Shown here in pieces: positions 13,410 to 27,011 of a DNA stretch of 64,000 bases. The translations under genes and the position numbers were made by a program. The notes below the pieces were generated by a model. The model worked only from the letters and a program-made list of their open reading frames with translations, had not been told where the DNA came from and searched no databases. How positions within the stretch are numbered: the first letter of the stretch is position 1; each line of letters opens with the position of its first letter. This stretch comes from Yoonia rosea (GTDB taxonomy: Bacteria > Pseudomonadota > Alphaproteobacteria > Rhodobacterales > Rhodobacteraceae), in NCBI RefSeq assembly GCF_900156505.1, contig NZ_FTPR01000004.1, forward strand, positions 1 to 64,000. The letters are read 5' to 3'.

Positions 13410-13444
13410 CCCTCCCCAACGCACCCCAATTCAAGGAATTGAAG

Positions 13445-16400
13445 ATGAACCAGGAACTGACAAACAACCCGTTTAACCCGCTCACACCGGCAAAAACGTT
13501 TGATGAAATCAAGGTGTCGCTGGCATCTCCCGAGCGGATCCTGTCGTGGTCCTTCGGAGAGATCAAAAAGCCCGAGACCATCAACTACCGTACGTTCAAG
13601 CCAGAGCGCGACGGTCTGTTCTGTGCGCGTATCTTTGGCCCGATCAAGGACTACGAATGCCTGTGCGGTAAGTATAAGCGCATGAAGTATCGCGGCGTTG
13701 TCTGCGAAAAATGCGGTGTTGAAGTTACGCTGCAAAAGGTTCGCCGCGAGCGGATGGGCCACATTGAACTGGCAGCACCCGTCGCACACATCTGGTTCCT
13801 CAAGTCGCTGCCATCCCGCATCGGCCTGATGCTGGACATGACGCTGCGCGATCTTGAGCGCATCCTGTACTTCGAAAACTACGTCGTGATCGAACCCGGC
13901 CTGACTGACCTGACTTATGGCCAGTTGATGACCGAGGAAGAGTTCAACGACGCACAGGACCTTTATGGCATGGATGCATTCCAGGCCAACATCGGTGCTG
14001 AAGCGATCCGCGAAATGCTGGCCCAGATTGATCTGGAATCGGAGGCAGAGACACTGCGCGCCGATCTGAAAGAGGCCACAGGCGAATTGAAGCCCAAGAA
14101 GATCATCAAGCGTTTGAAGATCGTCGAAAGCTTCCTTGAAAGCGGCAACCGCCCCGAGTGGATGGTGCTGACCGTGATCCCTGTGATCCCGCCAGAACTG
14201 CGCCCGCTGGTCCCACTGGATGGCGGCCGTTTCGCGACGTCTGACCTCAACGATCTTTATCGTCGTGTGATCAACCGCAACAACCGTCTGAAGCGTCTGA
14301 TCGAGTTGCGCGCACCTGACATCATCGTGCGGAACGAAAAGCGGATGTTGCAGGAATCTGTTGATGCGCTGTTCGACAATGGCCGTCGTGGCCGCGTGAT
14401 CACGGGTGCCAACAAGCGCCCGCTGAAATCGCTGTCCGATATGCTGAAGGGTAAGCAGGGTCGCTTCCGTCAGAACCTTTTGGGTAAGCGCGTCGACTTC
14501 TCGGGTCGTTCGGTCATCGTGACCGGTCCGGAACTGAAGCTGCACCAGTGTGGTCTGCCGAAAAAGATGGCGCTCGAGCTGTTCAAGCCGTTCATCTACT
14601 CGCGCCTTGAAGCCAAGGGTCTGTCCAGCACAGTCAAGCAAGCCAAGAAACTGGTCGAAAAAGAGCGTCCAGAGGTTTGGGATATCCTTGATGAGGTGAT
14701 CCGCGAACACCCTGTCATGCTGAACCGTGCGCCAACGCTGCACCGTTTGGGCATTCAGGCGTTTGAACCGGTTCTGATCGAAGGTAAGGCGATCCAGCTG
14801 CACCCGCTGGTCTGTTCTGCGTTTAACGCTGACTTTGACGGTGACCAGATGGCGGTTCACGTCCCGCTGAGCCTTGAGGCCCAGTTGGAAGCCCGCGTTC
14901 TGATGATGTCGACAAACAACGTGCTGTCGCCTGCGAACGGTGCGCCAATCATCGTGCCGTCACAGGATATGATCCTTGGTCTCTACTACACCACCATCAT
15001 GCGTCACGGCATGAAGGGCGAGGGCATGTCTTTCAGCGATATCGAAGAAGTCGAGCACGCGCTGACCGCGGGTGAAGTGCATCTGCACGCCAAGATCACG
15101 GCGCGGATGGTACAGATCGACGACGAAGGCAACGAAGTCATGACGCGGTTTGAGACCACACCGGGCCGTTTGCGTCTGGGTGCGTTGCTTCCGCTCAATG
15201 CCAAGGCGCCGTTTGCGCTGGTCAACCGTCTGCTGCGCAAGAAAGAAGTGCAGCAGGTCATCGACACCGTCTACCGCTACTGTGGTCAGAAAGAATCTGT
15301 CATCTTCTGTGACCAGATCATGACCATGGGCTTCCGCGAAGCGTTCAAGGCAGGCATCTCGTTCGGTAAGGACGATATGGTTGTTCCCGATACCAAGTGG
15401 GAACTGGTCGACGAGACACGCGAGCAGGTCAAAGACTTTGAACAGCAGTACATGGACGGCCTGATTACACAGGGCGAAAAGTACAACAAAGTTGTCGATG
15501 CCTGGTCAAAGGCCAACGACAAAGTCACCGACGCGATGATGACCACGATCTCCACCACACCGCTCTTGGCGGATGGTGCCGAAGGTGAGCCGAACTCGGT
15601 TTACATGATGGCCCACTCCGGTGCGCGTGGTTCGGTCACACAGATGAAGCAGCTGGGCGGTATGCGCGGTCTGATGGCCAAGCCGAACGGCGAGATCATC
15701 GAAACGCCGATCATCTCGAACTTTAAGGAAGGTCTGACCGTTCTTGAGTACTTCAACTCGACCCACGGTGCCCGTAAGGGTCTGTCGGACACGGCGTTGA
15801 AGACTGCGAACTCGGGTTACCTGACACGTCGTCTAGTGGACGTCGCCCAAGACTGCATCGTCCGTGAGGTCGATTGCGGAACAGAGCGTGCGATCACCGC
15901 AGAAGCCGCCGTGAACGATGGTGAAGTCGTTGCATCACTGGCCGAGCGTGTGCTGGGTCGTGTGTCTGCGGATGACGTCATTAAGCCGGGTACGGACGAA
16001 GTGATCGTCGAAGCAGGCGAGCTGATCGACGAGCGCAAGGCCGACATGATCGACATGGCCGCGATTGGCAAAATGCGTATCCGCAGCCCGCTGACCTGTG
16101 AAAGCGAAGATGGCGTTTGTGCGATGTGCTATGGCCGTGATCTGGCCCGCGGTACCCGCGTGAACATCGGCGAAGCTGTTGGTATCATCGCGGCACAGTC
16201 CATCGGTGAACCTGGTACACAGCTGACAATGCGGACGTTCCACATTGGTGGTGTTGCCCAAGGTGGCCAGCAGTCGTTCCTCGAGGCCTCACAGCCTGGT
16301 AAGATCGAATACCGTAATGCTCAGCTGCTTGAGAACGCAGCTGGCGAAATGGTTGTGATGGGCCGGAACATGGTTCTCGCGATTGTTGGTGAAGAGGGCG

Positions 16401-17692
16401 AAGAGCGCGCGACCCACAAGGTCGGCTATGGCTCCAAAGTGTTCGTCAAAGAGGGCGCATCTGTGCTGCGCGGCGATAAACTCTTTGAATGGGATCCCTA
16501 TACACTTCCAATCATCGCCGAGGCCTCTGGTACAGCCAAATACGTTGATCTGGTGAACGGTATCGCAGTCCGTGAAGACACCGACGATGCAACGGGTATG
16601 ACCCAGCGCATCGTGTCTGACTGGCGTGCGGCACCGAAGGGCAATGAGCTTGCTCCGAAGATCATCGTTCTTGGCAAGGATGGCGAAGTTGTCCTCAAAG
16701 AGGACGGCAACCCCGTTGCGTATCCAATGTCTGTGGATGCGGTTCTGTCGGTTGAAGACGGCGAAGAGATCAAAGCGGGTGATGTTGTCGCGCGTATCCC
16801 ACGTGAGGGTGCCAAGACGAAAGACATTACCGGTGGTCTGCCACGTGTGGCCGAACTGTTCGAAGCCCGTCGTCCAAAGGATCACGCAATCATCGCTGAA
16901 ATCGATGGCTACGTGCGCTTTGGCAAGGACTATAAGAACAAGCGCCGCATCGCGATTGAGTCTTCGGATGATGCAGACGTGAAGGTCGAATACATGGTGC
17001 CCAAGGGCAAGCACATTCCGGTTGCGGAAGGTGACTTTGTCCAGAAGGGTGACTACATCATGGACGGCAACCCAGCCCCGCACGATATTCTTGCGGTTAT
17101 GGGGGTCGAGGCCCTTGCGGACTATATGATCGACGAAGTGCAGGACGTTTATCGCCTGCAAGGTGTGAAGATCAACGACAAGCACATCGAAGTTATCGTG
17201 CGCCAGATGCTCCAGAAGTGGGAGATTCAGGACAGCGGTGACACCGTTCTGCTGAAAGGCGAGAACGTCGATAAGGCCGAGTTTGATGAAGCCAACGCGA
17301 AGGCACTTGCACGGGGCGACCGCCCTGCGACAGGCGAGCCGATCTTGTTGGGTATCACCAAGGCGTCGTTGCAGACCCGTTCGTTCATCTCTGCGGCATC
17401 GTTCCAGGAAACGACACGCGTTCTGACCGAAGCTTCCGTGCAAGGTAAGCGCGACAAGCTGATCGGCCTGAAAGAGAACGTGATCGTGGGCCGTCTGATC
17501 CCTGCCGGTACCGGTGGTGCAACACAGCAAATCCGCCGTGTTGCTGCAGATCGCGACAATGTCGTGATTGAAGCACGCCGCGAGGAAGCTGAAGAGGCCG
17601 CACGCCTTGCAGCTCCGATGGAGATGCCAGCGCAGTCCGAGGAAGATCAGGTCTTTGGCACCGCCGTTGAGACGTCCGAGGACGACGCATAA
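13445..17692 (+). CDS. rpoC: DNA-directed RNA polymerase subunit beta'
   Basis: A 1415-residue beta' subunit. AAGGA lies 7 bases before the ATG at 13445. The N-terminal zinc ribbon is [20 protein letters not shown]. The catalytic [16 protein letters not shown] lies at residues 461-476, with the three metal-binding aspartates present. The trigger-loop region MRTFHIGG and the second zinc site ([16 protein letters not shown]) are also seen. The C-terminus is acidic ([13 protein letters not shown]). A strong terminator follows 22 bases after the stop and closes the ribosomal/RNA polymerase block. Confidence 0.98.
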
Positions 17693-17746: not shown

Positions 17747-17843
17747 TGTGCGTTTGCGCCATTGACGTGCCACAGAGATCAGCGGGCAGATTTTGCCTGC
17801 ATTATCATTTTGCGCCCGTCGTGATCCATTATATGGATGGCCT

Positions 17844-18722
17844 ATGACATTTGATCAGATCAAAACCTTTCTCTGGGTGGCGCGTCTTGGTGGCTTTCGC
17901 AAAGCGGCTGAACGGCTCAACCTGTCACAGCCTGCTGTCTCAACGCGCATTTCGAACCTCGAACAGGAACTCCGGGTTCCGCTTTTTGAGCGTGGCTTGG
18001 GGGAACCGGTTCTAACAAAACATGGCGCGTTGCTCCTGTCTTATGCCGAGCAGATGTTGTTCGTCGAAGAGGAGATCAAACAGCGCGTCGCGAACCCGTC
18101 TGAAACAGAAGGGCTGTTTCGCGTGGGCGCCTCGGAAACGATCGCTCAGGCTTGGCTGCCCGATTTCCTGAAAGCCTTCAGCCAGCAGTACCCGCGCGTC
18201 AACGTGGATCTGGCAGTTGATATTTCGCTTAACCTGCGCGCTGATCTGCTTGACCGCAAACTTGATTTGGCACTGTTGATGGGGCCCGTGTCCGAATTCT
18301 CGATCGAAAACGTTGCTCTGCCAGCTTTCCATTTGCACTGGTACCGTGCCGCTTCAAACCCGCAGGAGGATCTCAGCCGGATCCCGATCATTTCATATTC
18401 CAGCCAGACCCGGCCGCACCGCGAACTGATGTCGGAACTATCACGCCGCATCGGACCCAAGCTGCGGGTTTATTCGTCGGCGTCTCTGTCTGCGAGCCTC
18501 AAGATGATCGCAGCAGGAATCGCCGTTGGCCCCTATCCGCGCGCGTTGGCAAATGATCTGCTATCGGCGGGTCAGATTGTTGAATTCGATCCGGGCTTTC
18601 GCCCGAGTCCACTGGACTTCACAGCCTCATATCTGTCCGAACCGCGCAGTTTTCTTATTGAAACGAGTGCAGAGATTGCCCGCACTGTCGCGCAAGACTG
18701 GGATCTACGGCACGTCAGGTGA
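17844..18722 (+). CDS. LysR-family transcriptional regulator of the oxoproline operon
   Basis: A 292-residue LysR regulator. The N-terminal winged helix is clear: MTFDQIKTFLWVARLGGFRK then AAERLNLSQPAVSTRISNLE and PLFERG. It is followed by a substrate-binding-like effector domain from about residue 90. The ATG at 17844 is chosen because the family start aligns there; the ribosome binding site is weak. It is upstream of and in the same orientation as the operon for a D-glutamate-cyclase-family protein, a TRAP transporter and PxpABC, with a dyad (18732-18753) between them. It is therefore the probable controller of that operon. The inducer is unknown; 5-oxoproline or a related compound is the natural guess. 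In Bacillus subtilis the comparable locus carries an IclR-type regulator (KipR) instead. Confidence 0.9.
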   Translation: MTFDQIKTFLWVARLGGFRKAAERLNLSQPAVSTRISNLEQELRVPLFERGLGEPVLTKHGALLLSYAEQMLFVEEEIKQRVANPSETEGLFRVGASETIAQAWLPDFLKAFSQQYPRVNVDLAVDISLNLRADLLDRKLDLALLMGPVSEFSIENVALPAFHLHWYRAASNPQEDLSRIPIISYSSQTRPHRELMSELSRRIGPKLRVYSSASLSASLKMIAAGIAVGPYPRALANDLLSAGQIVEFDPGFRPSPLDFTASYLSEPRSFLIETSAEIARTVAQDWDLRHVR

Positions 18723-18731
18723 ATAAGAAAA

Positions 18732-18753
18732 TTTTATAGGTAACGATATAAAA
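18732..18753. promoter_or_regulatory. Candidate LysR operator upstream of the oxoproline operon
   Basis: TTTTATA (18732-18738) and TATAAAA (18747-18753) form a perfect inverted repeat with an 8-base spacer. It contains the T-N11-A type spacing of LysR boxes. It lies just after the LysR gene and 60 bases before the next gene, in AT-rich sequence that may also supply a -10 element. Confidence 0.5.
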
Positions 18754-18813
18754 TGATAATTTGCATGGAACAGCCCTAACATGTGATGCTTTATCAAGAA
18801 GAGCGGGGCTGCC

Positions 18814-19635
18814 ATGAACGCGAAATCTGTTTCCCACATCGATCTGGTCACCGCCACCGCGGTTGATGCACGCGCGGCGATCCGGTCAGGATCATATGCA
18901 GGGCACACCGCAGGTTTGGCGGCCGGTAAATTACAATGCAATCTTGCGATCTTGCCAGAACGTTATGCGCTCGATTTCTTGCGGTTTTGCCAGCGCAACC
19001 CCAAGCCTTGTCCGGTTGTCGGTGTAAGCGATACCGGCAATCCAGCGCTGCCGACGCTGGGCCAAAACATTGATATCCGCACTGATGTTTCCAAATATCG
19101 CATCTTCCGCGATGGCACGCTGGCCGATGAGGTCACCGATATCAGCGATGAATGGACTGATGATCTTGTTACGGTCGCACTGGGGTGTTCCTTTACCTTT
19201 GAGAATGCGCTCTTGCGCGCTGGCATTCCTGTGCGTCATATCGAGACAGGTTTGAATGTTCCGATGTTTCGCACCAAGATTGATCTGGTGCCGGCGGGTC
19301 GGTTTCACGGTCAAATGGTTGTCACCATGCGCCCCATTCCGGAACATCAGGTTGCCCAAGCGCATGAAATCAGTCGCCGTTTCCCTCAGGCTCATGGCGC
19401 GCCGATTGCGGTCGGCGATCCGGAAAAGATCGGGATTGCGGATCTGATGCAGCCTGATTGGGGTGATGCGGTTGAAATCAGAGCTGGCGAAGTGCCGGTT
19501 TACTGGGCCTGCGGTGTGACACCTCAGAACGTCCTGCTGGACGCCGGGCTGCCGCTCTGCATCACGCATTCGCCCGGTCATATGCTTATCGCCGATGTGG
19601 CCGAGGACGCCGAAACAACAATTCTAAAACAATAA
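18814..19635 (+). CDS. D-glutamate cyclase family / putative hydro-lyase (DUF1445, YcsI-like)
   Basis: A 273-residue protein of the DUF1445/YcsI family, with the family opening AAIRSGSYAGHTAGLAAGKL and the block VTVALGCSFTFENALLRAGI. A later segment is VPVYWACGVTPQN followed by ITHSPGHMLIADV. Bacterial members are named putative hydro-lyases. The related mammalian mitochondrial protein DGLUCY turns D-glutamate into 5-oxo-D-proline. Here the gene leads an operon with a TRAP transporter and 5-oxoprolinase subunits, as ycsI is linked with ycsF-kipI-kipA in Bacillus. A role in supplying or interconverting 5-oxoproline is inferred. The reaction of bacterial members is not settled by the sequence. 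Confidence 0.85.
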   Translation: MNAKSVSHIDLVTATAVDARAAIRSGSYAGHTAGLAAGKLQCNLAILPERYALDFLRFCQRNPKPCPVVGVSDTGNPALPTLGQNIDIRTDVSKYRIFRDGTLADEVTDISDEWTDDLVTVALGCSFTFENALLRAGIPVRHIETGLNVPMFRTKIDLVPAGRFHGQMVVTMRPIPEHQVAQAHEISRRFPQAHGAPIAVGDPEKIGIADLMQPDWGDAVEIRAGEVPVYWACGVTPQNVLLDAGLPLCITHSPGHMLIADVAEDAETTILKQ

Positions 19636-19664
19636 ACAAACGACCCAACAAGGAGACAAAAACT

Positions 19665-20696
19665 ATGAAGAAAGTCATATCCATCCTCGCGGCGACCACC
19701 GCACTCGCATCACCCGCCATAGCCGAAGATCTGTCCGTCGTCGGAAGCTGGTCCAGCCTGCCTCTGCACAACCAATATGAGGCACCCTTCTGGAGCACGA
19801 CATTGCCGGAAGCGTCGGGTGGCGGCATCAATGTTGAACTGACGACCCATAACCAGATGAGCCTCGGTCTTGGTGATATTTATCCACTGCTGGGTCAGGG
19901 CGTTTATGACGTCGCGATGACAGTGGCCGACTATGCCGTTGCCGATGCGCCTGAACTGGAAGGTCTGGATGTGCCGCTGGTTGCGCTGACTGCTGATGAG
20001 GCACGTGCAATGGTCGATGCTGCCCGCCCGATGGTCTCTGACATCTATCGCGACCGTTTCAATTCGCACGTACTTGCGATTGCGCCCTACCCACCACAGG
20101 TCGTTTTCTGCAACCACGAGATCACAAATCTGGCCGATCTTGAGGGTCTGAAGGTGCGCGCCTCTGGCCGGATGACCGCGAAGTTGCTGGAAGCACTTGG
20201 CGCGGAAGGCGTGAACGTTTCCTTCGCCGAAGTGCCGGGTGCGTTGCAGAACGGCGTTGTCGATTGTGCCGTCACAGGTGCCGGTTCGGGCTATAGCGCG
20301 GGTTGGTGGGAAGTTTCCACGCACTTGCTGCCCATTCCGCTTGGTGGTTGGGACTCGGTCGTGACTGCGATCAACCTGGATAAATGGAACAGCCTGAGTG
20401 CGGATGACCAAGCGCTGATCTCAAGCGAGATTGTCACCGGTTTTGAAGATCCGGCATGGGCCAGCGCCCAAGACGCATTGGTCAATGACATTGCCTGCCT
20501 GACAGGCAATGGTGAATGCCCATCAGGTGATGCGCGCTCCATGACCTTGGTTGAGGTGAGCGACGCAGACTTTACGCGGGCACGCGACATCCTGACAACC
20601 GAAGTTCTTCCTGAATGGGCAGAGCGCGCAGGTGGTGATTGGGCGGCCCGTTGGAATGAAAGCGTCGGCGCCGTTGTTGGTGTGACAATCAACTAA
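19665..20696 (+). CDS. TRAP transporter solute-binding protein (DctP type)
   Basis: A 343-residue periplasmic binding protein of a TRAP transporter. A signal peptide (MKKVISILAATTALASPAIA, cut before ED) is followed by the DctP fold. The segment NLADLEGLKVRASGRMTAKL holds an Arg in the place that usually binds the ligand carboxylate, and FAEVPGALQNGVVDCAVTGA is the typical following strand. Spacing to the neighbours (29 bases before, 25 after) supports one operon. Operon context suggests 5-oxoproline, D-glutamate or another small carboxylate as ligand. That is inference. Confidence 0.88.
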   Translation: MKKVISILAATTALASPAIAEDLSVVGSWSSLPLHNQYEAPFWSTTLPEASGGGINVELTTHNQMSLGLGDIYPLLGQGVYDVAMTVADYAVADAPELEGLDVPLVALTADEARAMVDAARPMVSDIYRDRFNSHVLAIAPYPPQVVFCNHEITNLADLEGLKVRASGRMTAKLLEALGAEGVNVSFAEVPGALQNGVVDCAVTGAGSGYSAGWWEVSTHLLPIPLGGWDSVVTAINLDKWNSLSADDQALISSEIVTGFEDPAWASAQDALVNDIACLTGNGECPSGDARSMTLVEVSDADFTRARDILTTEVLPEWAERAGGDWAARWNESVGAVVGVTIN

Positions 20697-20721
20697 AAGC
20701 AAAGTCAGGGGACGTGTTGAG

Positions 20722-21270
20722 ATGGAATTTAAGCTGATTCATCGTCTGCGGGTGATCAACAAAGGCGTGGCGCTGGTCGTGGGTTTCGGCCTGCTCCTGT
20801 GTGCTGCCTTTGTGCTCGTGGATATTATCATGCGCCAGATCGGCTCGTCCCTTGGCGGCACAGAAGAGATCGCGGGTTATGCGATGGCGCTCGCGACCTC
20901 TTGGGGCATGTCCTACACGCTGCTTGAGCTGGGGCATGTCCGCATTGATCTGCTGCGCACGAAATTCCAATCCTTCGGAAAGGCGCTGTTTGATGTCTTT
21001 TCGATGATCATCATGTCCGGTGTGATCATCACGATCGCCATCAAAGCATGGCCGGTTGTCGAACGGTCCATCACCAATGGATCGCGCGCGAACACGCCGC
21101 TTGAGACGCCACTGGCTTGGGTGCAGTTGCCATGGTTTGCGGGCTGGGTCTGGTTTGCGGCCATGTCCACGATCACGACGCTTTGCGCGCTTAGCTTGCT
21201 GGCCAAACGCAGACATGCCGAAACAGAAAGCATCATTGGTGCCTTCGCTGAGCAGGAGACACTGCAATGA
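20722..21270 (+). CDS. TRAP transporter small permease (DctQ type)
   Basis: A 182-residue inner-membrane protein with four hydrophobic helices, starting with GVALVVGFGLLLCAAFVLVD. The conserved region around ATSWGMSYTLLELGHVRIDL fits DctQ, where a short loop carries GHVRVD. It should pair with the following large permease, with which it overlaps by four bases (ATGA). Confidence 0.87.
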   Translation: MEFKLIHRLRVINKGVALVVGFGLLLCAAFVLVDIIMRQIGSSLGGTEEIAGYAMALATSWGMSYTLLELGHVRIDLLRTKFQSFGKALFDVFSMIIMSGVIITIAIKAWPVVERSITNGSRANTPLETPLAWVQLPWFAGWVWFAAMSTITTLCALSLLAKRRHAETESIIGAFAEQETLQ

Positions 21271-22550
21271 TCGGCTATGTGTCTATCGGCCTTTTGGGGC
21301 TGCTTGCGCTTTCCATTCCTGTCGGGATCGTCCTGTTTCTGTTGGGGTTCGGGATTGATATCTTCTTTTCCAATTTTCCCCTGACGCGTGGCCTTGGGAA
21401 TATGGTGTGGTCGTCATCAAATTCGGCTACCCTCATTGCCATCCCGTTCTTTGTACTGCTGGGTGAAATCCTTGTGCGCAGTGGTGTTGCAACGCGGACC
21501 TATGCCGCCCTTGACCGCTGGGTGTCTTGGCTGCCGGGTGGTCTGGTGCATGCCAATATCGCCACCGCGACCATGTTTTCGGCGACCTCGGGGTCATCTG
21601 TTGCGACGGCTGCCACGGTGGCGACTGTTGCCATGCCGCAGGCCGAGAAGCTGGGGTATGATCCCAAACTCTTTTCCGGTGCGATCGCTGCGGGTGGGAC
21701 GCTGGGCATTATGATACCACCGTCGATCAACCTGATCGTTTACGGGTTCCTGACACAATCCTCTATTCCGCAGCTCTTTCTTGCGGGGTTGATCCCCGGT
21801 ATTGCGCTGGCGATTGCCTTTATGGTCGTGACGGCGATTATCTGCATGATCCGGCCTGATCTGGGTGGCGTGCGCCGCACGTTTCCATTCCCGCAGATGC
21901 TGCGCGCATTGATTGACCTGATCCCGATCCTGATCCTTTTCGGCCTGATCGTGGGGTCGATCTACGGTGGCTGGGCCACCCCGACCGAGGCCGCAGCCGT
22001 TGGTGTGGCGGGCGCATTTTTGATTGCGCTGGCCTTCGGTGGTGTGTCTTGGGACATGTTGCTGCAAAGTCTGACGGGGACAGTCAAGATCACATCAATG
22101 ATCATGCTGATCGTGATTGGTGCGTCGTTCCTGAATTTCACGCTGGCCTCTGCGGGGCTCGGGCGGGAACTGACAGAATTTATGACGGGGCTTGGCTTAA
22201 CACCGCTTAAGACGATCCTTGTCGTGGTCGTGCTTTACATCGTTTTGGGGTTCTTCATTGAAACCCTGTCTCTGATGGTTGTGACCATTCCGATCATCGT
22301 GCCGCTGGTGGTTGCGCAGGGCTATGATGTGATCTGGTTCGGTATCCTGATGATTGTCCTGATCGAGATGGCCCTGATCACACCGCCAGTAGGTCTGAAT
22401 CTCTATGTTGTGCAGGGCGCGCGCAAATCGGGCAGCCTGAACGAAGTGATGCTGGGGGCCTTGCCCTATTGCCTGACCATGCTTGCGATGGCATTTCTTC
22501 TCATCGCTTTCCCAAGCATCGCACTTTTCCTTCCTAACTTCCTGCAATAA
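21267..22550 (+). CDS. TRAP transporter large permease (DctM type)
   Basis: A 427-residue sodium-coupled membrane subunit with about 12 helices. The DctM signature regions are present: VWSSSNSATLIAIPFFVLLG near the start, ATMFSATSGSSVATAATVAT, and AAGGTLGIMIPPSINLIVYG. A repeat-related segment, MALITPPVGLNLYVVQGARK, lies near the C-terminus. It completes the TRAP system with the two preceding genes and is followed after 12 bases by pxpA. Confidence 0.93.
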   Translation: MIGYVSIGLLGLLALSIPVGIVLFLLGFGIDIFFSNFPLTRGLGNMVWSSSNSATLIAIPFFVLLGEILVRSGVATRTYAALDRWVSWLPGGLVHANIATATMFSATSGSSVATAATVATVAMPQAEKLGYDPKLFSGAIAAGGTLGIMIPPSINLIVYGFLTQSSIPQLFLAGLIPGIALAIAFMVVTAIICMIRPDLGGVRRTFPFPQMLRALIDLIPILILFGLIVGSIYGGWATPTEAAAVGVAGAFLIALAFGGVSWDMLLQSLTGTVKITSMIMLIVIGASFLNFTLASAGLGRELTEFMTGLGLTPLKTILVVVVLYIVLGFFIETLSLMVVTIPIIVPLVVAQGYDVIWFGILMIVLIEMALITPPVGLNLYVVQGARKSGSLNEVMLGALPYCLTMLAMAFLLIAFPSIALFLPNFLQ

Positions 22551-22562
22551 GGGCCGGAGGCG

Positions 22563-23324
22563 ATGCAGATTGACCTGAACGCTGACCTTGGAGAAGGCTT
22601 TGGCCCGTGGTCCATGGGTGATGACAGCCAGATGATGACGCTGGTCACCTCGGCCAGTATCGCCTGCGGGGGGCATGCGGGCGATCCAGAGACGATGTAC
22701 CGGACGTTGATGCAGGCCAAGCAAAACGGGGTGAGCGTTGGCGCGCATCCGGGGTATGCGGATCGCGAAGGCTTTGGCCGCCGTGTGATCCCCATGTCAC
22801 CGGATGAGATCGGGCGGATGTGTGCCGCACAGATCGGTGCGCTGATGGGGGTCGCGGCACTGGTTGGGGTGCCTGTGACCTACGTCAAACCGCATGGGGC
22901 GCTGGGCAATCTAGCAGCGCGGGATCGTACGGTCGCAGATGCCCTTGTCGCGGCTGTGCAGAGGATTGATCCCGCATTGGCCATCCTCGCCATCTCTGGC
23001 ACTCAAAGCGAAGAGGCCGCACGGGCCGCAGGCGTGCCTGTGTTTTCGGAAATCTTTGCTGATCGCGGCTATCTTTCCTCGGGGCAGCTCGTGCCGCGCA
23101 ACCAAGAAGGTGCGATGATCCACGACGCGACGGAGGCCGCCGCGCGTTTGATGGGCTTTCTGCAAAGCGGTCTGATGCCAGTGGTGGATGGCGACCCTAT
23201 CAAACTTGCAGCGCATTCGATCTGTGTGCATGGTGACAGCCCGGGGGCTGTGGACATGACACGCACAATTTCTAACTATCTCACAGCGCAGGGTGTCGCG
23301 TTCAGACCGTTTATCGCGCCCTAA
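22563..23324 (+). CDS. pxpA: 5-oxoprolinase subunit A (LamB/YcsF family)
   Basis: A 253-residue LamB/YcsF protein, beginning MQIDLNADLGEGFGPWSMGD and containing IACGGHAGDPETM, SVGAHPGYADREGFGRR, the YVKPHGALGNLAARD segment and ICVHGDSPGAV. In Escherichia coli PxpA acts with PxpB and PxpC as an ATP-dependent 5-oxoprolinase that opens 5-oxoproline to L-glutamate. All three subunits are encoded here in a row. GGAGGC lies just before the ATG. Confidence 0.93.
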   Translation: MQIDLNADLGEGFGPWSMGDDSQMMTLVTSASIACGGHAGDPETMYRTLMQAKQNGVSVGAHPGYADREGFGRRVIPMSPDEIGRMCAAQIGALMGVAALVGVPVTYVKPHGALGNLAARDRTVADALVAAVQRIDPALAILAISGTQSEEAARAAGVPVFSEIFADRGYLSSGQLVPRNQEGAMIHDATEAAARLMGFLQSGLMPVVDGDPIKLAAHSICVHGDSPGAVDMTRTISNYLTAQGVAFRPFIAP

Positions 23325-23332
23325 GGATGCTT

Positions 23333-24022
23333 ATGGAACCTCGATTTAAACCCGTAGCTGATCATGCTTTGCTGGTGACTTTCTCTGATGCAATCAGCGA
23401 AGAGGCCCATGCGGCTGTCATTGCGCTTGATCAGGCAATCGCAGCAGATGTGCCGGATGGCGTGATTGAAACGGTGCCTGCGCTAGTCAATCTTCTGGTG
23501 TCGTTTGACCCGATCAAGACGGACCACGGTGCTGTTGAAAGCCATCTGCGGACACAGCTTGAAGGTCTGGAAAGCCAGAAGATCATTGGCGTCGAACGAC
23601 AGGTTCAGGTCTGCTACGAGGGCCCTTTCGCCCCTGATCTGGAAGCCGTTGCTGCGGCGACAGGGCTGTCGCAGGAGGCAGTCATCAACGCGCATCTTGC
23701 GGGGGATTTTCATGTTCTAATGTATGGGTTCTCGCCCGGTTACGCCTATCTGTCCGGGGTACCAGAGGCGATCCAAGTGCCGCGCAAGCCCGCCCCCGTG
23801 CGCGGTGTGCCCGCTGGTAGTGTGATTATCGCAGGGCCACAATGTCTGATTACAACGCTGACGATGCCCACAGGCTGGTCGATCATCGGGCGGTCCCCGA
23901 CTCCGATTTTCACAGGAAACCCAGACCATCCGTTCCTTTTTGATGTGGGTGATCGGGTGGTGTTTGAACGTGTTGACCTCAAAACCTATGAAGAGCTTTG
24001 CAAGGAAAAGGTCGATGGCTAG
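23333..24022 (+). CDS. pxpB: 5-oxoprolinase subunit B (KipI family)
   Basis: A 229-residue KipI/PxpB protein. It has RFKPVADHALLVTFSDAISE at the start, then VQVCYEGPFAPDLEAVA, the family hallmark MYGFSPGYAYLSGVPE and the RSPTPIFTGNPDHPFL segment. The ATG at 23333 is preferred because AAGGA lies 5 bases before it. An ATG at 23327 would add two residues. The gene starts within 10 bases of the pxpA stop and overlaps pxpC by eight bases. In Bacillus KipI also inhibits the sporulation kinase KinA. There is no reason to expect that role here. Confidence 0.92.
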   Translation: MEPRFKPVADHALLVTFSDAISEEAHAAVIALDQAIAADVPDGVIETVPALVNLLVSFDPIKTDHGAVESHLRTQLEGLESQKIIGVERQVQVCYEGPFAPDLEAVAAATGLSQEAVINAHLAGDFHVLMYGFSPGYAYLSGVPEAIQVPRKPAPVRGVPAGSVIIAGPQCLITTLTMPTGWSIIGRSPTPIFTGNPDHPFLFDVGDRVVFERVDLKTYEELCKEKVDG

Positions 24023-25016
24023 CGCAAAATTCTCTGTCTCATTTGCAGGGCCATTGGTCACAATGCAGGATGTGGGCCGTCCGGGTCACATGCGCTATGG
24101 TGTGGCGGCGTCCGGCCCGATGGATCGTCTGGCCTTTGATGCGGCCCATGCAGCACTTGGCAACAAGGCAGGCTCGAACGCGATCGAGATTTCCCTTGGT
24201 GGTCTGATGCTGCAATGCACCGAAGGATCGGTCAGCGTGGCGATCACCGGTGGTGATTTTGTCGTCGAACATGCAGGGCAAAAGACAAGTTCATGGACCA
24301 TCCTGACAATCCGCAAAGGCGAGAAGCTGGCAATCCGTGCGGGCAAGGCAGGCAGTTGGGCCTATCTGGCTTTCGCGGGTGATCTGGCGTCTGAGACATG
24401 GCTTGGAAGTCAAGCCACTCACGCATCCTCTGGCTTTGGTGGGGGTGTTGTGCAAGGCGGACAAGCGCTTGTCGTGGCTGATGCGGCTGTGCGCGAAGAG
24501 CGCGAGGGCGAGATCGCGCAGCCGGACTTTGCATCTGACGGCGCGATGCGCGTCGTGCTGGGCCCGCAGGACCAGTATTTTACAGCTGAAGCGATAGAGC
24601 ACCTTTTAAGCGCGCCTTTCGCCCTGTCAGATGCCTACGACCGGATGGGGATGCGGCTGAATGGCCCGACCCTCGAGATGGAGCGCGCTTTGTCTATCCC
24701 GTCAGAGCCGATTGTGCGTGGGGCCATTCAGGTCTCGGGCGACGGTGTGCCGACAGTTCTTCTCGCGGATCATCAAACAACGGGCGGCTATCCAAAGATA
24801 GCGACTGTGATTTCATGTGACACAGACCGGCTGACCCAGCTGCGCGCGGGTCAGAAGATTCGTTTTGCGTCAGTCTCAACGCAGCAGGCCGTTGATGCGG
24901 CACGCGATTACGCAGAGCGAAAGGCGCAATACCTCGCGCAGATTTCGATCGCGCGAGGTACCTTGGCACAAAGACTGATGCGCGAAAATCTGATCCACGC
25001 CTGGGCGGACGATTAA
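24015..25016 (+). CDS. pxpC: 5-oxoprolinase subunit C (KipA, biotin-dependent carboxylase-like)
   Basis: A 333-residue KipA/PxpC protein. Typical features are MQDVGRPGHMRYGVAASGPM, the following ALGNKAGSNAIEISLGG segment, VVLGPQDQYFT, SDAYDRMGMRLNGP and VLLADHQTTGGYPKIATV. It is the last gene of the operon. Only 21 bases separate it from the end of the convergent ettA gene, and I see no intrinsic terminator there. Confidence 0.93.
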   Translation: MASAKFSVSFAGPLVTMQDVGRPGHMRYGVAASGPMDRLAFDAAHAALGNKAGSNAIEISLGGLMLQCTEGSVSVAITGGDFVVEHAGQKTSSWTILTIRKGEKLAIRAGKAGSWAYLAFAGDLASETWLGSQATHASSGFGGGVVQGGQALVVADAAVREEREGEIAQPDFASDGAMRVVLGPQDQYFTAEAIEHLLSAPFALSDAYDRMGMRLNGPTLEMERALSIPSEPIVRGAIQVSGDGVPTVLLADHQTTGGYPKIATVISCDTDRLTQLRAGQKIRFASVSTQQAVDAARDYAERKAQYLAQISIARGTLAQRLMRENLIHAWADD

Positions 25017-25037: not shown

Positions 25038-26693
25038 TTAGCGCACGAATTTCTTATGCTTCATCCGCTTCGGCTCAAGCGCATCTGCGCCCAACCGTGC
25101 CTTCTTGTCTTCTTCGTAGTCGGTAAACGCGCCTTGGAACCACTCCACATGGGCGTCGCCCTCGAAGGCAAGGATATGCGTGCAAATCCGGTCAAGGAAG
25201 AAGCGGTCGTGGCTGATCACCACGGCGCAGCCCGCGAAATCGACCAACGCGTCTTCGAGCGCGCGGAGCGTTTCCACGTCCAGATCGTTGGTTGGTTCGT
25301 CAAGCAGCAGGACGTTGCCGCCTGATTTCAGCAGCTTGGCCATATGCACGCGGTTGCGTTCACCGCCCGACAAGAGCCCTACCTTCTTTTGCTGGTCCCC
25401 GCCTTTGAAGTTGAAGGCCGAGCAATAGGCGCGGCTGTTCATCGAGGCATCGCCAAGTTCAATAATCTCTGCGCCGCCTGTGATTTCTTCCCAAACCGTG
25501 CTGTCAGGGTTCAGCGCGTCACGCGACTGGTCGACGTAAGACAGTTTGACGGTTTCGCCATATTCAACGGTGCCCTCATCAGGCTGGGCCTGACCGGTCA
25601 GCATCGAGAACAGCGTGGATTTACCTGCACCGTTCGGGCCGATCACGCCGACGATCCCGCCGGGGGGCAGATCAAAGCTGAGGCCTTCGATCAAGAGCTT
25701 GTCGCCCATGGCCTTTTTCAGACCATCCACCGCAATCACTTTGGATCCGAGCCGTGGACCGTTGGGGATGATGATCTGGGCGCGGCCCATTTTCTCGCGC
25801 TCGGACTGGTTGGCCATTTCGTTATAGGCCGCGATCCGTGCCTTGGATTTCGCCTGCCGCGCTTTAGCACCTTGGCGCATCCATTCCAGTTCGCGTTGCA
25901 GGGTGCGTTGCTTGGATTTGTCGTCCTTTGCTTCGCGCTCCAGCCGCTTGGCTTTGGCCTCAAGCCAGCTTGAATAGTTGCCTTCATGCGGAATGCCAGA
26001 GCCGCGGTCGAGTTCCAGAATCCAGCCGGTGATCGCATCAAGGAAATAACGGTCGTGGGTGACGATGAGGATCGTGCCTTTGTAGTCAATCAGGTGCTGT
26101 TGCAGCCATGCGATGGTTTCCGCGTCAAGGTGGTTGGTCGGTTCGTCGAGCAGCAGCATATCAGGTGCGTCCAGCAAGAGCTGGCAAAGTGCGACACGGC
26201 GCTTTTCACCGCCTGAAAGTGTGGTGACGTCTGCATCATCGGGTGGGCAGCGCAGGGCCTCCATCGAGATATCAATCTGCGCGTCCAGATCCCAGAGGTT
26301 CTGGCTGTCGATTTCATCCTGAAGCCGGGCCATTTCGTCGGCGGTTTCTTCCGAGTAGTTCATGGCAACTTCGTTGTAGCGATCAAGAATCGCCTTCTTG
26401 TCGGCCACGCCCAGCATCACGTTTTCACGCACGGTCAGGTTCGGATCAAGTTCGGGCTCTTGCGGCAGGTACCCCACACGCGCGCCTTCGGCGGCCCACG
26501 CCTCACCGCTGAATTCCTTGTCCTGACCGGCCATAATCCGCATCAGTGTCGATTTACCGGTGCCGTTGACACCGACGACGCCGATTTTCACGCCAGGCAG
26601 AAAGTTCAGGCGGATATTTTCAAAAACCTTTTTCCCGCCAGGATAGGTTTTGGACACGCCGTCCATGAAATAGACGAATTGATTGGCAGCCAT
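25038..26693 (-). CDS. ettA: Energy-dependent translational throttle protein EttA (ABC-F ATPase)
   Basis: A 551-residue ABC-F protein with two ATPase domains and no membrane part. It binds the ribosomal E site and gates the first elongation step according to energy charge. Domain 1 carries GVVGVNGTGKSTLMRIMAG and TLSGGEKRRVALC, with DMLLLDEPTNHLD. The linker includes KQRTLQRELEWMRQGAKARQ. Domain 2 has GPNGAGKSTLFSMLTG and LLSGGERNRVHMA. Length and the opening VYFMDGVSKTYPGGKKVFEN match EttA rather than Uup or YheS. The ATG at 26693 follows GGAGCG. Confidence 0.94.
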   Translation of the reverse strand: MAANQFVYFMDGVSKTYPGGKKVFENIRLNFLPGVKIGVVGVNGTGKSTLMRIMAGQDKEFSGEAWAAEGARVGYLPQEPELDPNLTVRENVMLGVADKKAILDRYNEVAMNYSEETADEMARLQDEIDSQNLWDLDAQIDISMEALRCPPDDADVTTLSGGEKRRVALCQLLLDAPDMLLLDEPTNHLDAETIAWLQQHLIDYKGTILIVTHDRYFLDAITGWILELDRGSGIPHEGNYSSWLEAKAKRLEREAKDDKSKQRTLQRELEWMRQGAKARQAKSKARIAAYNEMANQSEREKMGRAQIIIPNGPRLGSKVIAVDGLKKAMGDKLLIEGLSFDLPPGGIVGVIGPNGAGKSTLFSMLTGQAQPDEGTVEYGETVKLSYVDQSRDALNPDSTVWEEITGGAEIIELGDASMNSRAYCSAFNFKGGDQQKKVGLLSGGERNRVHMAKLLKSGGNVLLLDEPTNDLDVETLRALEDALVDFAGCAVVISHDRFFLDRICTHILAFEGDAHVEWFQGAFTDYEEDKKARLGADALEPKRMKHKKFVR

Positions 26694-27011
26694 TGGGGAC
26701 GCTCCGATAAAGTCAGGGTTCCGCCTTAGATAACCATGCAAAGGGGCAGGGGCAATGCAAAGGACGCCATGATTTATCTTCATCGTCTGCCCTGTGTCAG
26801 TGAACCTGACCGCATGTCTTGTGGGGGGCATAACCAAGCGGGCCGAGGACATCAGCGAAACGCAGGATCCGGCTTTACCGGTCTCGGATGAAGCCTTGGT
26901 CGTTGGGGTGTTTCAGAAGCGCTGTGCGTTGTGGAAGACGTTGACCGGGATCGCCCACAGTCACCTATGGCCGAGAAAAAAGCCCCGCAAGAGCGGGGCC
27001 TTTGGTGGTGA
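26694..27011. other. 318-base intergenic region, ettA upstream side
   Basis: This stretch holds the promoter side of ettA and, at its right end, the terminator of the PilJ-domain gene. A plus-strand open frame (26794-27222) crosses into the PilJ gene but resembles no protein family I know and has no clear ribosome binding site. I see no RNA gene here. Confidence 0.5.
26976..26999 (-). terminator. Rho-independent terminator of the PilJ-domain gene
   Basis: On the minus strand GCCCCGC and GCGGGGC (26999-26982) flank a 4-base loop and are followed by six T. It lies 13 bases after the stop codon of the PilJ-domain gene. Confidence 0.88.

Follow-up and report, generated by a model that had tools for sequence, protein, structure and literature searches.

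We analysed a 64,000-nucleotide stretch of DNA from Yoonia rosea (contig NZ_FTPR01000004.1, positions 1 to 64,000; hereafter, the window), in which eight genes lie head to tail on the + strand at 17844-25016. In order, they encode a LysR-type regulator, a DUF1445 protein, the three components of a tripartite ATP-independent periplasmic (TRAP) transporter (DctP, DctQ, and DctM), and the three subunits of a 5-oxoprolinase (PxpA, PxpB, and PxpC). This gene content, given in an earlier sequence-only reading of the locus, is confirmed for all eight genes, in place and in strand, by Pfam matches that exceed the curated cut-offs. The features of the locus are:

17844-18722, + strand: LysR-type regulator, probably of the operon (Pfam HTH_1 and LysR_substrate; ATG at 17844)
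18723-18813, + strand: A+T-rich gap between the LysR and DUF1445 genes, a possible promoter or operator (sequence)
18814-19635, + strand: DUF1445 (PF07286) protein, 273 amino acids (aa) (PF07286, 4.3e-65; NCBIfam NF003969, 6.1e-122)
19186-19188, + strand: codon of DUF1445 Cys125 (alignment and AlphaFold 2 (AF2) model)
19510-19512, + strand: codon of DUF1445 Cys233 (alignment and AF2 model)
19665-20696, + strand: TRAP substrate-binding protein DctP (PF03480, 1.9e-18)
20722-21270, + strand: TRAP small membrane subunit DctQ (PF04290, 3.6e-17)
21267-22550, + strand: TRAP large membrane subunit DctM (PF06808, 1.3e-81; TIGR00786)
22563-23324, + strand: 5-oxoprolinase subunit PxpA (PF03746 (LamB_YcsF), 3.5e-93; NF003814; 2dfa over the full length, 214 bits)
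23327-24022, + strand: 5-oxoprolinase subunit PxpB (PF02682 (CT_C_D), 1.1e-58; 2phc_B, 147 bits)
24015-25016, + strand: 5-oxoprolinase subunit PxpC (PF02626 (CT_A_B), 3.3e-75; 3mml_A, 131 bits; YbgK 5dud_A, 123 bits)

The DUF1445 gene product, which also carries the labels YcsI family, "putative hydro-lyase", and, in Pfam, "D-glutamate cyclase", aligns with the whole of the PF07286 profile (1-143 of 143; 218 bits) and exceeds the cut-off of the equivalog model NF003969 (405.6 versus 324 bits). The full DctPQM set of a TRAP transporter and the full PxpABC set of a three-subunit 5-oxoprolinase are each encoded together. Among NCBIfam models, PxpA exceeds the cut-off of the subfamily model NF003814, PxpB is just under that of TIGR00370 (137.6 versus 145.55 bits), and PxpC is at that of TIGR00724 (230.2 bits) and well under that of the equivalog model NF045499 (184.9 versus 500 bits). 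For LysR, the ATG at 17844 is a better start than the TTG at 17793 of the mechanical open-reading-frame (ORF) list; for PxpC, the start is most likely the ATG at 24015, which gives an 8-base overlap with the end of PxpB, and not the TTG at 23940 of that list. The genes from DUF1445 to PxpC are likely to form one transcript, because the gaps between them are short (29, 25, 12, and 2 bases) and DctQ and DctM overlap by 4 bases.

The Y. rosea genome (G000; 3.5 Mb in 5 contigs) has one DUF1445 copy, and the PxpC of the operon is its sole PF02626 match. A second PxpA, on another contig (L074, G000:C1:2055290-2056003), has no PxpB or PxpC match beside it; the operon is therefore the genome's only complete PxpABC. 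The LysR-DUF1445 gap contains a σ70-like match (9 of 12 positions) at 18733-18760; a promoter scan of the gap gave 3 matches versus a mean of 3.0 in shuffled sequences, and terminator-scan matches were likewise no commoner than in shuffles. By eye, the upstream neighbour is an rpoC-like gene (13439-17692) and the downstream neighbour is a convergent ABC-ATPase-like gene (25038-26852, - strand).

Linkage and co-occurrence of DUF1445 with 5-oxoprolinases

We examined the company of DUF1445 in two sets of genomes. In the first set, 299 Pseudomonadota genomes, profile searches identified PF07286 in 43 genomes (44 copies), PxpA (PF03746) in 92 genomes, and OXP, our label for the type of oxoprolinase-family protein, a HyuA-HyuB fusion, that neighbours DUF1445 in some loci, in 72 genomes at 1e-100, 56 of these with at least 900 bits. 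The second set was retrieved from GTDB species genomes with patterns that include both Cys motifs of DUF1445; of at least 594 loci, it retains the 80 nearest, all named. ORFs in ~18 kb around each DUF1445 copy (less at contig ends; the window itself for the Y. rosea copy) were compared with reference proteins.

DUF1445 is linked to 5-oxoprolinases in both sets. In the first set, 24 of 44 copies have a 5-oxoprolinase-type gene within ~9 kb on either strand (18 Pxp and 6 OXP; 17 and 4, respectively, on the same strand). By simple arithmetic, the chance that one random PxpA lies within 9 kb of a given gene of a 5-Mb genome is ~0.4%. In the second set, the figure is 50 of 80 loci (33 Pxp, 16 OXP, 1 both, and 30 neither). 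Specifically, the 56 Pseudomonadota loci comprise 14 with Pxp, 15 with OXP, and 27 with neither; Pxp is present in 16 of 18 Bacillota loci and in 3 of 3 Rokuibacteriota loci; the one Chloroflexota locus has both, the one Actinomycetota locus has OXP, and one unplaced locus has neither. The linkage of DUF1445 to 5-oxoprolinase, on which the sequence-only reading had relied, is thus borne out, and its presence in five phyla indicates that it is not peculiar to the Y. rosea genome.

Co-occurrence at the genome level points the same way. All 43 DUF1445 genomes of the first set encode PxpA (35 genomes) or an OXP of at least 900 bits (8 more), versus 95 of the 256 others (Fisher test, 5.6e-17), a comparison in which the 900-bit line was chosen after the scores were known and omits some full-length OXPs in two pieces (e.g. 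G131, G214, and G256), all in genomes lacking DUF1445. With all 72 OXP genomes counted, the figures are 43/43 and 106/256 (2.8e-15), and for PxpA alone they are 35/43 and 57/256 (1.2e-13), these Fisher tests all ignoring kinship and genome size. A genus-level test, which lessens the effect of kinship, gives PxpA or OXP in 28 of 28 DUF1445 genera, with 92 of all 153 genera having one (9.2e-8). The co-occurrence signal resides in PxpA and in the union of PxpA and OXP. All 35 genomes with PxpA and DUF1445 also have a PF02626 gene in a frame of less than 1000 aa, too short for urea carboxylase. The Y. rosea genome has no OXP match at 1e-100, and the single Hydantoinase_B gene that it has is part of a pair encoding separate subunits, with weak similarity to OXP.

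Most second-set genomes whose DUF1445 locus lacks an oxoprolinase have a 5-oxoprolinase-type gene elsewhere. Of these 30 genomes, 18 have PxpA at another site (fragmented in one of them); of the other 12, all but one have an OXP relative at 54-68% identity, which is in pieces in one case. The exception, the small metagenome-assembled genome (MAG) G307, has OXP matches at 31-36% only.

Exchange of oxoprolinases and carriers around DUF1445

DUF1445 is the fixed point of these loci, and oxoprolinase and carrier vary around it. With one carrier label per locus, assigned on either strand in the priority Liv, Nramp, TRAP, and major facilitator superfamily (MFS), the 124 loci comprise 53 TRAP, 16 Nramp-like, 15 Liv-type ATP-binding-cassette (ABC), and 10 MFS loci, and 30 in which no carrier was recognised. 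A quick tree built from the 124 DUF1445 proteins requires no fewer than 10 switches of oxoprolinase type (73 labelled rows of 124, the 50 with neither type and the 1 with both being omitted) and no fewer than 12 switches of carrier (94 labelled rows). The sequence-only reading had the transporter and the regulator swapped and the enzymes kept. Its first half agrees with the change of carrier and regulator types around DUF1445; its second half is too strong, since the oxoprolinase type is itself swapped. Taken as a whole, that reading is supported in part: the company of DUF1445 with 5-oxoprolinase stands, and the conservation of the enzymes was overstated.

The exchange can be followed within the clade of the window. 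Among 16 related loci compared, in which the LysR relatives are 48-85% identical, the same LysR-DUF1445-DctPQM cassette recurs; in 15 of them DctP is 76-91% and DctM 79-96% identical, and L149 is a more distant member (DctP, 38%). What comes after the cassette differs: PxpABC in the window; PxpB-PxpC with no PxpA match in L076; a distant set, ordered PxpB-PxpC-PxpA, in L062, L081, L082, and L086 (PxpA 41-43% identical); OXP in L061, L078, L080, L083 (partial, at a contig end), and L161; and neither oxoprolinase in L065, L069, L075, L077, and L079. The OXPs of L061 and L064 carry Hydant_A_N, Hydantoinase_A, and Hydantoinase_B in one chain, as does the eukaryotic-type fused 5-oxoprolinase; that OXP acts on 5-oxoproline would be an assignment at the level of the family. 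Beside DUF1445, enzymes of two unrelated types that probably share one reaction take each other's place, and this interchange points to 5-oxoproline itself as what DUF1445 loci have in common.

The cassette may be mobile, because the plasmid that carries its OXP version in Sulfitobacter (L161; NZ_CP136685.1, 176886-184905) was typed conjugative and has an integrase gene close to the cassette. Separately, an Nramp-PxpA-DUF1445-PxpBC-biotin carboxylase cluster is present on a Klebsiella plasmid (L162, NZ_CP058744.1; one region read), and of 239 plasmid records that match DUF1445, 93 come from Klebsiella. A biotin carboxylase or biotinyl protein lies beside PxpB/PxpC in nine loci, mostly of the Nramp-like type (L032-L035, L047, L101, L111, L114, and L126).

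A probable 5-oxoproline pathway and candidate roles of DUF1445

TRAP receptors for pyroglutamate (5-oxoproline) are already known. In particular, PDB titles describe Bordetella DctP6 (2pfz) and DctP7 (2pfy) as "binding pyroglutamic acid" and a marine receptor (6wgm) as "specific for pyroglutamate", and the affinity of DctP7 for pyroglutamate is given as 0.3 µM in a section of PMC13274462. These structures are the best PDB matches of the two DctPs in a DUF1445 locus of a Polaromonas MAG (L109; gene order LysR-DUF1445-DctP-DctM-DctP-OXP), with 2pfz at 328 bits and 2pfy at 237 bits, followed by 6wgm. A profile of relatives of the window DctP, built from 24 of the 38 DUF1445-adjacent DctPs with more than 150 bits (those with fewer being omitted), places 2pfz and 2pfy at the top of 70 PDB sequences (E up to 1e-10) and 6wgm seventh. 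Residue R165 of the window DctP, invariant in the 24 aligned DctPs and aligned with an Arg of the L109 receptors, is presumably the conserved TRAP receptor Arg for the ligand carboxylate. By these comparisons, 5-oxoproline appears to be the likeliest ligand of the window TRAP system. A PPQ motif, shared by the window clade and DctP6/DctP7-like receptors, was considered as a mark of 5-oxoproline receptors and dropped, because other DUF1445-adjacent DctPs lack it and, of 11 further DctPs in the genome of the window, 1 has it, in an 18.8-kb stretch with none of the 5-oxoproline reference proteins.

We conclude from gene content and company that the operon quite probably imports 5-oxoproline, which PxpABC would open with ATP to give glutamate, a degree of confidence that applies to the pathway and not to the chemistry of DUF1445. 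For substrate, stereochemistry, regulation, and every catalytic step, we infer the following. LysR would respond to 5-oxoproline; the TRAP transporter would carry a 5-oxoproline-type acid into the cell; PxpABC would carry out the ATP-dependent ring opening of 5-oxoproline to glutamate; and DUF1445 would serve the D side and so keep D-5-oxoproline, or any D-glutamate that cyclises, from going to waste.

Several observations weigh against the 5-oxoproline assignment. No oxoprolinase gene is present in the flank of 50 of 124 DUF1445 loci (20/44 in the first set and 30/80 in the second), and in some loci DUF2848 and an amidase take its place. Counted by itself, OXP shows no significant enrichment in genomes with DUF1445 (12/43 versus 44/256 at 900 bits or more, p 0.14; 15/43 versus 57/256 with all 72 OXP genomes, p 0.08), and the nearest solved full-length OXP relative (7hk5) is named N-methylhydantoinase. 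The window DctP is ~20% identical to the L109 receptors (61/318 and 70/319 aligned positions) and belongs to a separate, distant clade, outside that of 2pfy, 2pfz, and 6wgm; a single-sequence search puts 5iga, 5i5p, and 5im2 slightly above 2pfz. By fold (AF2 model; predicted local distance difference test (pLDDT) 90.2), 4n4u ranks first, 2pfy second, 6wgm ninth, and 2pfz fifteenth, and receptors for lactate, sialate, and ferulate score about as well. Fold comparison was rejected as an indicator of the DctP ligand, as all TRAP receptors score alike.

Loci with no oxoprolinase in the flank would be expected if the neighbourhood were coincidental, or if a gene were hitch-hiking without sharing a pathway. 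The linkage, co-occurrence, genus-level, and swapping counts speak against such a coincidence, as does the finding that contexts are rearranged yet still joined in five phyla, and we consider it extremely improbable. The loci with DUF2848 allow another reading, in which the cell imports an amide or lactam acid other than 5-oxoproline, DUF2848 and the amidase process it in some species, and Pxp or OXP serves only in downstream salvage. DUF2848 shares a strand with DUF1445 in 18 of 124 loci, accompanied in 13 by the amidase, mostly beside TRAP genes and with or without an oxoprolinase (L036, L038, L056, L059, L060, L066-L068, L090, L093, L096, L098, L102, L108, L113, L116, L127, and L145); Pfam matches support the genes in one such locus, and 10 of the 18 have no oxoprolinase on that strand. 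We judge this reading improbable, as the window locus has no DUF2848 and 29 of the 30 second-set genomes with an unlinked DUF1445 still have a 5-oxoprolinase-type gene.

The PDB relatives of the DUF1445 protein, 2pif (PSPTO_5379) and 3db9 (Atu3911), share its family and fold, with 54% and 48% identity in structural alignment; their deposit titles give no function. A Foldseek search of the PDB with the AF2 model (pLDDT 92.8; E up to 0.001) returned, in 5 chains, only these two and, after them, the NrpR-like MJ0159 (3nek; E 1.5e-6, TM-score 0.38), and the Pfam NrpR domain NRD1_2 matches DUF1445 below its cut-off (5.8e-5; 22.9 versus 25 bits). NrpR is a 2-oxoglutarate sensor, and an NrpR-like fold would fit a pocket for a C5 acid in DUF1445. 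The two matches would also favour a role for DUF1445 outside the enzymes of the pathway, in which it would bind a C5 acid or regulate in response to one, similar to the NrpR ligand-binding domain. That role seems to us quite improbable: the MJ0159 match has a low TM-score, a LysR match is present in 72 of 124 flanks, DUF1445 is one half of a mammalian enzyme (below), and the 31 columns that are invariant in 34 aligned DUF1445 sequences (34 of 44), including R173, H194, and E130, look catalytic.

Two further residues, C125 and C233, vary together in the profile-found set, being Cys-Cys in 41 of 44 copies and Ser-Ser in the same 3; the Cys-Cys tally of the 80-locus set, which supplies 80 of the 121 Cys-Cys copies overall, is biased by the Cys-motif retrieval patterns, and only the 44-copy set counts. 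In the AF2 model, Cys125 lies between strand 118-124 and helix 126-135, and Cys233 lies between strand 226-232 and helix 235-244. Paired cysteines at strand-helix junctions recall two-base racemases. DUF1445 may be a 5-oxoproline racemase, an assignment that we put forward tentatively, in which Cys125 and Cys233 would act as acid/base thiols, invert 5-oxoproline from D to L, and feed an L-specific oxoprolinase; with this inversion, the operon would be productive on both isomers. Two points tell against the racemase step: the Foldseek search of the PDB did not place DUF1445 in the racemase folds (DapF, proline racemase, and Asp/Glu racemase), and mouse DGLUCY, which contains DUF1445, is reported to yield 5-oxo-D-proline. 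The three Ser-Ser copies (L071-L073) are divergent, share a neighbour set, flagellar where scanned (L072), and have no linked oxoprolinase.

Mammalian DGLUCY (GLUCM) has as its N-terminal domain DUF1445, the family of the window protein, with DUF4392 fused to it; the genome of the window lacks DUF4392. The mouse enzyme turns D-glutamate into 5-oxo-D-proline and forms no L-glutamate, as stated in part of PMC5339696, the examined portions of which make no domain assignment of the D-glutamate cyclase activity. By analogy, DUF1445 could itself be a D-glutamate cyclase, turning D-glutamate from peptidoglycan into 5-oxo-D-proline that PxpABC opens, with inversion by MurI at the level of glutamate. 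The Pfam family name of PF07286, the mouse reaction, and the linkage of DUF1445 with 5-oxoprolinase all favour this possible role, which we hold with reserve; the idea, which the sequence-only reading also offered, is not new, because Pfam already names PF07286 "D-glutamate cyclase", like mammalian DGLUCY. We prefer the racemase, while rating the two roles about equally likely, because a cyclase combined with a configuration-keeping oxoprolinase returns D-glutamate in a futile loop that burns ATP unless something else inverts. DGLUCY is said to be stimulated by Mn2+, which would fit its DUF4392 half better. The same applies to the acidic metal site described in part of PMC5132392 for a stand-alone DUF4392, a metal protein with phosphatase activity in vitro. 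Moreover, 114 of 124 DUF1445 loci have no DUF4392 on the same strand. That DUF1445 is something other than a racemase or a D-glutamate cyclase seems somewhat unlikely.

DUF4392 (PF14336) is rare, being present in 6 of 299 genomes, 4 of them with DUF1445, and has no match in the Y. rosea genome. It is on the same strand as DUF1445 and Pxp in 10 of 124 loci (2/44 and 8/80; L052, L053, L105, L115, L136, L140, L147, L151, L153, and L154), and the PF14336 match is confirmed in all ten (including G234 and G126). Gene orders include DUF1445-PxpABC-DUF4392 and DUF1445-DUF4392-PxpABC, among others, many with overlapping ends. These ten loci hold both halves of the mammalian D-glutamate cyclase as separate genes. 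Split halves as such were already known, because a table in PMC12547972 has six split GLUCM homologues in gut bacteria, the portion concerned naming no oxoprolinase link. Newly found here are the swapping of oxoprolinase type around DUF1445 and the operons that hold both DGLUCY halves. The open-licence literature yielded no paper tying split GLUCM to 5-oxoprolinase, the main PxpABC paper, which lies outside it, possibly discussing ycsI; the phrase "oxoproline racemase" was absent from all 5.39 million papers of the open-licence literature searched. As for fused bacterial DUF1445-DUF4392 proteins, a long DUF1445 frame in L064 has no DUF4392, and no systematic search was made. In Ralstonia, an open-ended 7.5-kb frame (L141:1-7570, - strand), possibly of more than one protein, combines two PF14336 stretches with an Asp/Glu racemase domain and DUF4781, and is divergent to a LysR-DUF1445-MFS locus.

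A further-reaching form of the proposal, unlikely as it stands, would make DUF1445 a cofactor-free 5-oxoproline racemase (Cys125/Cys233), with an NrpR-like fold new for such enzymes, and DUF4392 a metal-dependent D-glutamate cyclase. If this were true, D-glutamate to D-5-oxoproline to L-5-oxoproline to L-glutamate would be a full D-glutamate recycling route via the lactam, encoded whole in DUF1445-PxpABC-DUF4392 operons, and mammalian DGLUCY would be a fused remnant whose DUF1445 half either has a different activity or has lost it. DUF1445 has two crystal structures with no function and takes its name from a mammalian enzyme of two domains; the company that it keeps with two non-homologous 5-oxoprolinase types narrows it to a few easily assayed stereochemical reactions on glutamate and 5-oxoproline. 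The operons with separate DGLUCY halves would let the role of each half in the mammalian D-glutamate cyclase be told apart, and a D-isomer step would be added to bacterial pyroglutamate turnover.

Comparison with known 5-oxoproline systems

The Bacillus subtilis operon pxpA(ycsF)-ycsG-ycsI-pxpB(kipI)-pxpC(kipA), as set out in part of PMC10448178, resembles the window in having PxpABC and DUF1445 in one operon, and differs in having an Nramp-like carrier or Mn importer and KipR in place of TRAP and LysR. The order PxpA-Nramp-DUF1445-PxpB-PxpC recurs in Bacillus tequilensis (L107). Passages of the respective sources make YcsG a Mn2+ importer in B. subtilis (PMC10448178) and a YcsG-like protein, PxpT, a requirement for growth of Corynebacterium glutamicum on 5-oxoproline (PMC13274462); because the role of Nramp-like YcsG is thus disputed, "swapped transporter" may compare unlike functions.

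C. glutamicum pxpTABC, which PMC13274462 describes as needed for growth on 5-oxo-L-proline, combines a carrier with PxpABC, as does the window, and has an Nramp-type carrier (PxpT) and a PxpR regulator, unlike the TRAP and LysR of the window. The C. glutamicum control genome has no PF07286 match, and of 14 control genomes only that of B. subtilis has one.

Bordetella DctP6 and DctP7 and the 6wgm receptor are TRAP receptors for pyroglutamate, the acid that we propose for the window DctP, and the DctP6 and DctP7 genes are placed near a 5-oxoprolinase gene in part of PMC13274462. Their relatives sit in the DUF1445-OXP locus L109, whereas the window has PxpABC and not the fused enzyme.

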